DNA of 64,000 nucleotides, taken from Deltaproteobacteria bacterium. Its GTDB lineage: Bacteria; Myxococcota; Myxococcia; Myxococcales; 40CM-4-68-19. Location: contig VBKI01000054.1 in NCBI GenBank assembly GCA_005879535.1, forward strand, positions 1 through 64,000, given 5' to 3'. The notes beneath the pieces were generated by a model. That model was not told where the DNA came from, searched no databases, and worked only from the letters and a program-made list of their open reading frames with translations. The translations under genes were made by a program, and so were the position numbers. Of this stretch, positions 24,211 through 27,583 are shown piece after piece. Positions within the stretch are counted from its first letter, which is position 1. Each line of letters opens with the position of its first letter.

Positions 24211-24287
24211 GGGGTGTTAGTTAAGCTGGTTATAACGCCGGCCTGTCACGCCGGAGGCCACGGGTTCGAGTCCCGTACACCCCGCCA
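24211..24287 (+). tRNA. tRNA-Asp (anticodon GTC), attachment site of the adjacent island
   Basis: The acceptor GGGGTGT pairs with ACACCCC, followed by G and encoded CCA. The anticodon loop CTGTCAC gives GTC, aspartate. The last 17 bases (24271-24287) recur at 27567-27583, marking this tRNA as the integration target of the island downstream. Confidence 0.95.
24271..24287 (+). repeat. Left attachment repeat (in tRNA-Asp 3' end)
   Basis: 17 bases identical to 27567-27583. It forms the 3' half of the T arm, the acceptor strand and CCA of tRNA-Asp. Confidence 0.85.
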
Positions 24288-24289
24288 GT

Positions 24290-24863
24290 CTCCGAGGCTC
24301 GCAATCAGCGCCGGTTGCGGGCCTTTCTCATCTTTCGGGCCTACCGCCGTCAGAGCCGTAGCAAGGGCGTAGCAAGCCTCACGTATCGTGTCCTGCCGGG
24401 CCACGTGGGCCAGTCCACCGCCACTCGGCGGCTCGGGCTCGACCAGGGTAGCAATCGGCAGGCGCACGCAGAGCATTGGGTCGCAAAGGGTCGTCCAAGG
24501 AAACGTCGTGTAGGCGTCGATGATCGCCTGCGAGGAGCCATATGTGAACACCTTGAGCGCATCAGGATTCGCGCCGCCCGCCCGTGCAAGTGACACAAAC
24601 GTGCGCCGGGCATCGTGCTGGCGGCGCTGAGGCATCCGGAGCTTGCCGCAGTCCTTACGAAACTTCTTGAGCATGTGGTTGACGCTGCGGTGATTTCCCT
24701 CGCGCGACGGGATGATCAGGTCGTCAGCGCTGGGTTCGCGCTTCATGAGCTTGGGCCAGCCGTCCTCGCGCCAATCCGCCGACCCGGAGTATGAGCCCGC
24801 GCAGATCGCTCGCGCCGTGATTACGACCGGCTTGTTCTGGGGCGATGAGGACACTGAGGACAA
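24290..24863 (-). pseudogene. Tyrosine recombinase (phage-type integrase) C-terminal remnant
   Basis: The open frame runs 24246-24863 on the minus strand. Its recognisable part has GWPKLM and DDLIIPSREG, then the catalytic block HDARRTFVSLARAGG (His-x-x-Arg) and IIDAYTTFPW with the nucleophile Tyr at about 24511. The first catalytic Arg and the N-terminal core-binding domain are absent, and the expected THG of the third motif is TYG. It is therefore truncated and probably dead. The C-terminal extension over the tRNA is a read-through of the tRNA antisense, so the true end lies near 24290. Direction toward the tRNA is normal for an att-site integrase. Confidence 0.75.
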
Positions 24864-25045
24864 GGCGGCGGTCTGCGGCGAGTCGCCGGTGGACGTGCCG
24901 GATCGGGCGGTGTTGGAGTGGGTGGTCGAGCGCTGCCGCTACGGCGACGCGATCATCGAGCATGGCATCGCGTTCGTCCTCGTCCAGCCCGTGATCGAGC
25001 CTACGGGCGCGTAGCTCGGCGGTGTCGAGCCTGGCGGCGCGTCAC

Positions 25046-25378
25046 TCAACTCAAACCCGCATCGAACGAGGTGCCAGAAGCGGCAGGATCGGCCTTTTCG
25101 CGGACTATCTCGATGCGGAATCCCGCCTTGTAGCGAAGGTTCAGTGCCCGTCGCACGATCATCGGGAAGAATCCGAGTAGGAGAAGTCGAAGAAAGTCAC
25201 TGAGTGCCTCGAACATCTCAGCGCTGACTCGCGGTGACGCGGAATTGGCGATCAGCCTGAGCACCAACTGCGAGCCGAAGTACAAGACCCCGGTGGGCCA
25301 AGAGATCGACCACGCGATCTCGGAAGCCTGACGATAGCTCAGTCGCACTTGCTGCCTGCCCGAGATCGGATCAGCCAT
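25046..25378 (-). CDS. Hypothetical small membrane protein in island
   Basis: A 110-residue protein that I do not recognise. It has two possible membrane segments (ISWPTGVLYFGSQLVLRLIA and FLRLLLLGFFPMIV) separated by a polar stretch. GGGAG 8 nt before ATG 25378 supports the start. It lies 36 bp from the metallo-beta-lactamase gene in the same direction. No homology-based role can be given. Confidence 0.5.
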   Translation of the reverse strand: MADPISGRQQVRLSYRQASEIAWSISWPTGVLYFGSQLVLRLIANSASPRVSAEMFEALSDFLRLLLLGFFPMIVRRALNLRYKAGFRIEIVREKADPAASGTSFDAGLS

Positions 25379-25414
25379 CTGGCACTCCCGATCTGCAACC
25401 GAAAGGAGGCTCTT

Positions 25415-26311
25415 CTAAGGCAACTCAATCACGCTTCCGACGCCCGCATACCCATAATTCGCGCCCCAGACCTTCTTGAAATGCGCGAACGTGGGCTCGC
25501 CCGTGCAATGGCCCGGCGCGAGCCGCTCGACGTGCCAGGTATCGTGGAGCGCCGTCGCCACCTTGGAGATCTGATCGTCCGGCGCGGCGGGCATGTGGAA
25601 CCCGCCCAGGACCAGATGAACGCGCGGGTCGATTCGAGCGGCGGCCTCGACGATCTTCTCGATGCCCGGGTGTGAGCAGCCCGCCACCAGCACGATTCCC
25701 TTCGTCGTCTTCAACGCCAGCGACAGCTCGCGCAGCTCTTTGGTCCCCGGCGTTTCCGAGACCAGCGAAATCAAGTGCACTCCCGGTGCGACCTCGAGAT
25801 TGCCGTCGACGGGAACGAACTTCGCGCCGGGCCAGGCGCTGCCGAATTTCAGCGGCTCCGGCGGGCGCCCGCCGAAGTAGCGCTCGTGCTCGGTGAGCGA
25901 CTCGTCCTTGCGATAAAAGCTGCTGGGAAGCGCGCTGCCGAAGATCCCAAACACTTCCTTCGGCGCGTAGATCGTCACCTCGGGGTTGACTTTCAGCAGG
26001 TGCTCGAGGCCGGCGGTATGGTCGAGATGCCGATGCGAGATGACGGCGAAGTCGAGCTTGCCGAGATCGACCTTCGCCGCTTTGACGTTGGCCGCGAAGA
26101 CGGCCGCATTGTTTCCGGTATCGAAGAGGATGCGCTTGCCGGCGTATTCGACCAGCGCGCTGAAGCCCCAGTCCCTGACGAAGGCGGCGTTGCGGCCGAA
26201 GCCATCGTAGAGGATGGTCACCCGCGATCCTTCGGCCCGGGCCTCGCGCACGGAGACCATTGCCAGCAGGCACAGGACCGAGAAACTGACGAGGAGCGAG
26301 GACATGCGCAC
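25415..26311 (-). CDS. Exported metallo-beta-lactamase-fold hydrolase
   Basis: A 298-residue protein. A signal peptide (hydrophobic LLVSFSVLCLLAMVSV, cleavage near VREARA) is followed by the metallo-beta-lactamase fold. The metal-binding block is HRHLDH at residues 93-98, with further conserved GCSHPGIEKIVE, GGFHMP and APGHCTGEP. The pattern is closest to the hydrolase branch typified by dihydropterin-related phosphate synthases and MBL-fold hydrolases, not to true beta-lactamases. It lies within the tRNA-Asp island and is probably periplasmic. Substrate unknown. Divergent from the oxidoreductase, with the palindrome between them. Confidence 0.8.
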   Translation of the reverse strand: MRMSSLLVSFSVLCLLAMVSVREARAEGSRVTILYDGFGRNAAFVRDWGFSALVEYAGKRILFDTGNNAAVFAANVKAAKVDLGKLDFAVISHRHLDHTAGLEHLLKVNPEVTIYAPKEVFGIFGSALPSSFYRKDESLTEHERYFGGRPPEPLKFGSAWPGAKFVPVDGNLEVAPGVHLISLVSETPGTKELRELSLALKTTKGIVLVAGCSHPGIEKIVEAAARIDPRVHLVLGGFHMPAAPDDQISKVATALHDTWHVERLAPGHCTGEPTFAHFKKVWGANYGYAGVGSVIELP

Positions 26312-26497
26312 CCCCGAATGAGGTCAGCCTGGACCAAGCTGCGGTAGGAATGAACCGCAGATTGCGCCGGTTGTCCAGCACGGCAGAATGCCATCCGGTT
26401 CCACTGCAACCCTGGGCAAGGTGTGGCTCCTTGCATCGAAACGTCTGAACCGAGCCCGCTGAGCGCGAATCGCGATGACGCTCCGGGCATCCTCCAG

Positions 26498-26521
26498 TTT
26501 AGATGCTCGTCATCATCTAAA
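26498..26521. promoter_or_regulatory. Palindromic operator candidate upstream of oxidoreductase
   Basis: TTTAGATG-N8-CATCTAAA, a perfect 8-bp inverted repeat in an unusually AT-rich patch, ends 45 bp before the start of the gene at 26567. It resembles binding sites of dimeric regulators of the TetR/MarR type. No regulator gene is in the island. Confidence 0.5.
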
Positions 26522-26566
26522 TTCTGAAGAGAGACCGCTTGGACATGGGAACTGAGCGGGGGGCTG

Positions 26567-27565
26567 ATGAAAGCACTGGCCATTCGTCGTTATCGGGCGC
26601 CGATGGAAACGCTGGAGCTGCCGCGGCCCGAGCCGGGCCCGAGCGATCTGCTCGTGCGCGTGCGCGCCGCCAGCGTCAATCCCCTCGACTACAAGATCCG
26701 CGACGGCGGCGTGAAGGTGCTGATCCCCTACTCGTTTCCGCTGATCCTCGGTAACGATCTCGCCGGCGACGTGGAAGCGGTCGGCCCCGCCGTCACCAAG
26801 TTCAGGGTCGGCGACGCGATCTATGCACGCCTCGACAAAGATCGCATCGGTGCCATCGCCGAGTATGCCTTGGTACGCGAGAGCGCCGCGGCGAAAAAGC
26901 CCGCGCGCCTCGACTACGTGCAGACCGCGTCGCTGCCCCTGGTGGGGCTCACCGCCTGGCAGGCGCTGATGGATCTTGCGCAGTTGCAGGCGGGCCAAAA
27001 GATTTTGATCCACGCCGGCTCGGGAGGCGTCGGCACGTTCGCCATCCAGCTGGCCAAACACCTCGGCGCGCAGGTCGCGACCACCGCCAGCGCCAAGAAC
27101 CATGCGTTGCTGAAGTCGCTCGGCGCGGATGTGGCCATCGACTACAAGACCACCCGCTTCGAAGAGGTGGCGAAAGATCAGGACGTGGTCTTCGACACGC
27201 AGGCGGGCGAGACGCTGCTCCGCTCGTTCGAGTCGGTCAAATCGGGTGGCGTGGTGGTCACGATCGGCGGCCGGCCCGACGGCAAGTTCGCGCGCGCCTG
27301 GGGCCTCAGCCTGCCGCTCGTCTGGATCCTCGGGTTCCTCAACCGCAAGGTCGATCACCTGGCCAGAAAAAAGGGCGCGCGCTTCGAGTACCTGTTCATG
27401 CGCGCGAGCGGTGAGCAGCTGGAAAAGATCGGCGCGCTGGTGAACCATGGCGTCATCAAACCGATTCTGGACCGCACCTTTCCGCTGGAAGCCGCGGCCG
27501 AGGCCGTCTCCTACGTGGAATCGGGCCTTGCCGTCGGAAAAGTGGTCATTCGCGTCGCGGACTAG
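26567..27565 (+). CDS. NADP-dependent medium-chain oxidoreductase (quinone oxidoreductase-like)
   Basis: A 332-residue member of the MDR superfamily without the structural zinc. It has an N-terminal GroES-like domain (PLDYKIRDGG, ILGNDLAGDVEAVG) and a Rossmann domain with HAGSGGVGTFAIQLAKHLGA (about 150-169). LVGLTAWQALMDL fits quinone oxidoreductases. It would reduce quinones or enones with NADPH. It has a palindromic site upstream, and its stop lies 2 bp before the right attachment repeat, so the island boundary abuts the gene. GGGGG precedes the ATG. Confidence 0.85.
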   Translation: MKALAIRRYRAPMETLELPRPEPGPSDLLVRVRAASVNPLDYKIRDGGVKVLIPYSFPLILGNDLAGDVEAVGPAVTKFRVGDAIYARLDKDRIGAIAEYALVRESAAAKKPARLDYVQTASLPLVGLTAWQALMDLAQLQAGQKILIHAGSGGVGTFAIQLAKHLGAQVATTASAKNHALLKSLGADVAIDYKTTRFEEVAKDQDVVFDTQAGETLLRSFESVKSGGVVVTIGGRPDGKFARAWGLSLPLVWILGFLNRKVDHLARKKGARFEYLFMRASGEQLEKIGALVNHGVIKPILDRTFPLEAAAEAVSYVESGLAVGKVVIRVAD

Positions 27566-27566
27566 C

Positions 27567-27583
27567 TCCCGTACACCCCGCCA
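27567..27583 (+). repeat. Right attachment repeat of the island
   Basis: A copy of the last 17 bases of tRNA-Asp (TCCCGTACACCCCGCCA). No tRNA body precedes it, so it is an att-site duplication. Confidence 0.85.

Follow-up and report, generated by a model that had tools for sequence, protein, structure and literature searches.

Probable decayed remains of an Mx8-type integrative element at a myxobacterial tRNA-Asp gene

INTRODUCTION

The closest described counterpart of the locus considered here is the integration module of Myxococcus phage Mx8 (intP/attP; D86464, NC_003085). The attachment site of this phage is located inside its integrase gene, and integration gives the gene a new 3' end (PMC6070905), with a 112-residue C terminus of the integrase being replaced by 13 residues (PMC4701971). 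In the Mx8 sequence, attP sits within intP in the order catalytic domain, period-11 tandem repeat (CCGCTGTCACACCGCTGTCACA when read on the tRNA strand), hairpin, and tRNA-Asp 3' end, the last of which matches a genome of the order studied here (G054) over at least its final 26 bases. A second point of reference is the Islander class of genomic islands (PMC4383910), for which the filters comprise an intact tRNA gene with a displaced 3' fragment on the same replicon and in the same orientation, a fragment that is clear of conserved protein-coding domains, an integrase ORF recognized by Pfam (PF00589), and a length of 2 to 200 kb.

Here, we analyze a segment bounded by a tRNA-Asp gene and a repeat of its 3' end within a 64,000-nucleotide stretch of DNA (the window) from a soil myxobacterium. 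An earlier note had read this segment as a small island inserted at tRNA-Asp. With high confidence, we regard it as what decay has left of an integrative element of the Mx8 type, either a prophage or an island.

RESULTS

The left side of the locus, with its upstream genes, a methyltransferase gene, and a tRNA-Val/tRNA-Asp pair (Table 1), is conserved across the family. In G002, G005, and G007, the pair lies next to the same methyltransferase gene as in the window, and the tRNA-Asp gene is identical over 77 nt to that of G009. The last 17 bp of this intact tRNA, TCCCGTACACCCCGCCA, recur exactly and on the same strand with 3.3 kb between the cores, the second copy beginning one base past the stop codon (27563 to 27565) of an oxidoreductase gene (ADH), as the earlier note had claimed. 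There is no third copy at one mismatch or fewer in the 5.16-Mb genome, where other near copies have two mismatches, and shuffled sequences gave 0.20 matches to the 17-mer even when three mismatches were allowed.

Table 1. Features of the segment and its immediate surroundings (positions in the window)
Feature	Position	Strand	Remarks
tRNA-Val(TAC)	24133..24205	+	Upstream member of tRNA pair; ARAGORN and Rfam
tRNA-Asp(GTC), intact, integration target	24211..24287	+	Directly after tRNA-Val; ARAGORN and Rfam
Integrase pseudogene ORF	24246..24863	-	Homologous part 24483-24779; frame enters tRNA to 24246
attL core (tRNA-Asp 3' end)	24271..24287	+	Exact 17-mer
Terminator hairpin, 13-bp stem	24294..24325	+	Directly 3' of tRNA; carried by island
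11-bp-spaced direct repeat	24357..24376	+	Putative integrase arm sites
110-aa ORF, no family	25046..25378	-	May not be a gene
MBL-fold (metallo-beta-lactamase-fold) hydrolase	25415..26311	-	PF12706/PF00753
Palindrome	26498..26521		Between divergent MBL and ADH genes
MDR/quinone-oxidoreductase-like protein (ADH), full length	26567..27565	+	PF08240, PF00107, PF13602
attR core, truncated (17 of 23 bp)	27567..27583	+	Exact second copy of 17-mer
Right flank: imperfect hairpin and CTGTCAC(CCAG)ATGTACC arm-site-like repeat	27584..27667	+	Probable integrase end of older element

The integrase fragment that had been assigned to the segment was borne out by PHROGs (PHROG_1 integrase, E 2e-6) and BLAST as a broken stub, comprising the C-terminal ~100 catalytic residues of a tyrosine recombinase of the Mx8 IntP type; no match was found in Pfam (E<=0.001, including PF00589) or in NCBIfam. 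The stub is 51% identical over 99 aa to residues 278 to 376 of the G009 integrase, an intact tyrosine recombinase (460 aa) encoded at tRNA-Asp by a genome of the same family, and 42% identical over 109 aa (E 2e-14) to IntP of Mx8, its only phage match among the 50,697 records searched. The intact G009 integrase also matches Mx8 best among phages (41%), and a scan of viral contigs with it as the query gave no match. The fragment keeps the HDARR motif, the N-terminal ~277 residues are absent, and in the alignment the catalytic His of the THG motif is changed to Tyr. Because the N terminus is missing and Tyr replaces the catalytic His, the integrase is predicted to be inactive as it stands, judging by the active-site residues known for this family. 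No other mobility genes lie between the repeats, in line with the loss of other mobility functions noted before.

The last 13 residues of the stub, WRGVRDSNPWPPA, are encoded by antisense tRNA-Asp, a tail of the same length as in integrated Mx8. All three antisense frames of the tRNA-Asp gene are open for at least 13 codons into the tRNA, and integrases located at tRNA-Asp draw their C-terminal tails from at least two of them (WRGVRDSNPWPPA in the window; AGCTGLEPVASGVTGRRYNQLN in G005 and G009).

The left end of the segment follows the Mx8 order, with the integrase stub, the repeat, the hairpin, and the tRNA-Asp 3' end. Hairpins are found at the equivalent place in relatives and in Mx8 attP. 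The direct repeat (CGTAGCAAGGG/CGTAGCAAG) scores 8/8 at period 11 (shuffle p=0.0015) and may represent arm sites of the integrase. Downstream of tRNA-Asp or of its 3' fragment, repeats of this 11-bp type also occur in G005, G009, G009_C42, G054, G044, G027, and G049; the corresponding repeat in G028 has a period of 12, and no clear repeat was found in G015 and G012, where an integrase is present at tRNA-Asp. The likeness to the Mx8 module thus extends from the homologous integrase and the tRNA-Asp 3' end as the attachment site to an integrase gene that reads across att into the tRNA and an 11-bp-period repeat with a hairpin beside the core, in the window at the left end. In contrast to Mx8, the window has a truncated integrase with a changed catalytic His and an incomplete catalytic set, lacks phage genes and a P' arm, and has a core of 17 bp rather than about 28.

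G002, a member of the same genus, lacks the insert, since its tRNA-Asp runs straight into DNA matching the right flank of the window (106 aligned bases including the core, 81% identity, E about 1e-15); the alternative alignment, to the left edge of the island, is clearly worse (score 245 versus 323). The G002 contig ends 100 bp past the tRNA, with no continuing contig found, and all family genomes compared are drafts. Together with the intact tRNA and the displaced 3' end, this junction supports the tRNA-Asp-targeted insertion that had been proposed. It also provides a relative with an unoccupied site, as the earlier note had envisaged, but the site is empty only with respect to this insert, the flank beyond it probably being an older island. 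Assembly breaks fall at the tRNA-Val/tRNA-Asp pair or the methyltransferase gene, or close by, in draft contigs of four of the six congeners (G001 C78, G002 C155, G003 C279, and G004 C573), which suggests population variation at this site.

The right end of the segment has suffered damage. In G006, G009 (two copies), G012, and G002, the displaced 3' ends of tRNA-Asp start at TTCGAG and extend over at least 23 bp, the form common to the relatives being TTCGAGTCCCGTACACCCCGCCA, with one mismatch in G002. In the window, the core measures only 17 bp, and the bases before it do not match those of the relatives. Likewise, the right ends of the G006 and G009 islands have ~180 bp conserved up to the core (74% identity), presumably the attP' arm, whereas in the window only one base separates the full-length ADH gene from the core, leaving no room for an arm. 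Given the truncated core and the missing arm, recombination alone does not explain the right boundary, and the clean att pair of a compact island, as first described, does not hold at this end.

The DNA directly beyond the core can be aligned to the integrase-bearing end of the intact G005 element (z=4.0; z=7.3 for the G002 equivalent), while z is 1.4 or less against six flanks that look chromosome-sided (G006_C490, G009_C23, G012_C53, G002_C323, G037_attR, and G049_attR). Within this DNA, one CTGTCAC arm-like site is clearly recognizable and is followed at 11 bp by a second, weak copy; the 11-bp repeat alone is not significant (5/8, p=0.52; in G002, 6/8, p=0.10). An integrase remnant of the proposed second element was sought to the right of 27584, and none was found up to 28300. 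Given that this flank resembles the integrase end of a tRNA-Asp element that is intact in G005, the segment is probably what remains of a collapsed tandem array at tRNA-Asp; that a second, older element lies to the right of 27584, and that the flank is not native chromosome, appears fairly likely from these alignments. The alternative, in which one compact island is bounded by a clean att pair and borders native chromosome on the right, would accommodate both the exact repeat and the G002 junction. It is, in our view, the less likely reading, though one to be taken seriously, as it leaves the shortened core, the proximity of ADH with the missing arm region, and the preference of the right flank for an integrase end over chromosome-side flanks unaccounted for.

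The tyrosine recombinase of the G005 element itself (C64, L060:42-1439), at the same tRNA-Asp, is a different enzyme; it is intact at 465 aa, and its last residues are also encoded by antisense tRNA. Further to the right in the window, a gene for a small Cys-rich secreted protein with its flank (27779 to 28137) has an 84% identical copy at a non-tRNA locus in G003.

Tandem arrays are seen in G009, where a tRNA-Asp 3' fragment closes a first island and another integrase, distinct from the first, is encoded beyond the fragment and reads toward it; the two contigs concerned, C7 and C42, have a 97-bp end in common. The first island of these contigs (L063 and L109) carries an excisionase-like gene and encodes an Mx8-type integrase of 460 aa and a giant protein of repetitive sequence (at least 2134 aa); the second integrase, past the tRNA-Asp 3' fragment, has 447 aa. 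As in these arrays, the att core of the window is placed between what would be two element ends, the second with a hairpin and an arm-type repeat; unlike them, the window's second element would be reduced to its end, with no integrase left.

Three cargo genes had been counted between the repeats. The MBL-fold hydrolase and the oxidoreductase stand, but the 110-aa ORF, without a match in Pfam, NCBIfam, or PHROGs, is doubtful as a gene. The MBL-fold protein has a putative signal peptide, judged by eye, and its closest solved structures are PDB 7dck, 2p4z, and 3h3e; homologs at 51 to 67% identity were found in only five other genomes of the order, and four family members have MBL homologs at other loci. 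ADH matches TIGR02824 over its full length, below the cut-off, and its best homolog in the order stands at 62%. The palindrome between the two genes, TTTAGATG-N8-CATCTAAA, is possibly an operator; it was sought upstream of ADH homologs and was absent there. The GC3 of both genes is 0.85, compared to 0.83 to 0.93 for left-flank host genes, and composition therefore gives no foreign mark. If expressed, the pair most likely acts in the hydrolysis and reduction of small molecules, going by the protein families.

The linkage of MBL and ADH was seen in no other genome compared, and in ORF-against-ORF BLAST, which took the place of tblastx (the latter gave linked low-identity matches that were left unused), the G009 island has only the integrase in common with that of the window. 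The compactness of the island had been taken to single out its cargo as worth testing, but there is no sign that this cargo was selected: in other genomes, MBL and ADH do not accompany related islands, and members of both families are distributed patchily.

Relatives of the integrase are present in 43 of the 145 genomes of the order, many of them beside tRNA or tmRNA genes. They occur at tRNA-Asp in G009, G054, G044, G028, and G015, and elsewhere beside tRNA-Leu, -Gln, -Lys, -Glu, -Val, or tmRNA. Separately, a membrane-protein/glycosyltransferase-like gene in the window (32094 to 33444) is 84% identical at the DNA level to G010, a member of another genus, while the neighboring DNA has almost no match there, and a recent transfer of this gene is possible.

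DISCUSSION

We propose that the tyrosine recombinase of the element recombined the tRNA-Asp gene of the chromosome with an attP that carried its own copy of the tRNA 3' end. The tRNA would thereby have stayed complete, and a 3' fragment would have been displaced to the distal end of the insert. Later deletions would have removed the attP' arm and the N terminus of the integrase, along with whatever genes for structure or transfer were present, so that only the dead integrase stub, the divergent MBL/oxidoreductase pair, and a truncated attR remain. An older element probably already occupied this tRNA, and the insertion would have placed the newer one ahead of it; the integrase end of the older element would still be visible at 27584 to 27667.

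A mini-island of the CIME type, still excisable in trans by resident Mx8-type integrases, might be suspected from the intact arm repeat, hairpin, and core on the left and from the several integrases that use the tRNA-Asp site in the family. However, the truncation of the right core extends through the T-loop portion, at which the identity block of the relatives starts, and the right arm is absent, which makes such mobility improbable. We consider it slightly more improbable still that the segment is a nonautonomous mini-element in which a palindrome-controlled, divergent MBL/oxidoreductase pair would be selected as detoxification cargo and could be moved by the tRNA-Asp-specific integrases of other residents. 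A chance 17-bp match, with MBL and ADH as ordinary chromosomal genes beside an unrelated integrase scrap, might draw on the MBL homologs at other loci of four family members, but it is refuted by the G002 junction, as the second copy leads on into the sequence found immediately after tRNA-Asp in that genome, and only ~3e-5 exact copies are expected by chance in the window.

How, then, should the decayed Mx8-type element be classified? It resembles the Islander class in its intact tRNA and displaced 3' fragment, on the same replicon and in the same orientation, in the position of this fragment outside conserved protein-coding domains, one base past the ADH stop, and in the 3.3 kb that separate the cores. 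It differs in having no Pfam-detectable integrase within the segment, only the C-terminal stub, and since it does not pass the integrase filter we regard it as a fossil and not as a putatively active island. The comparison with a relative lacking the insert, provided by G002, is a test that we have added and is not an Islander filter. By descent the segment belongs to a known kind; on its own, it is an ordinary genomic fossil.

Beyond this locus, the tRNA-Asp site used by phage Mx8 emerges as a repeated integration site across this myxobacterial order, at which islands stack in tandem. If the reading of a second element is true, the newer insert of the window adjoins the tRNA, with an older and more decayed one behind it, and G002 would keep an element of the older type. 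Even where draft assemblies are fragmented, the combination of a short 11-bp repeat and a hairpin may be useful for distinguishing the integrase ends of elements from chromosomal flanks.
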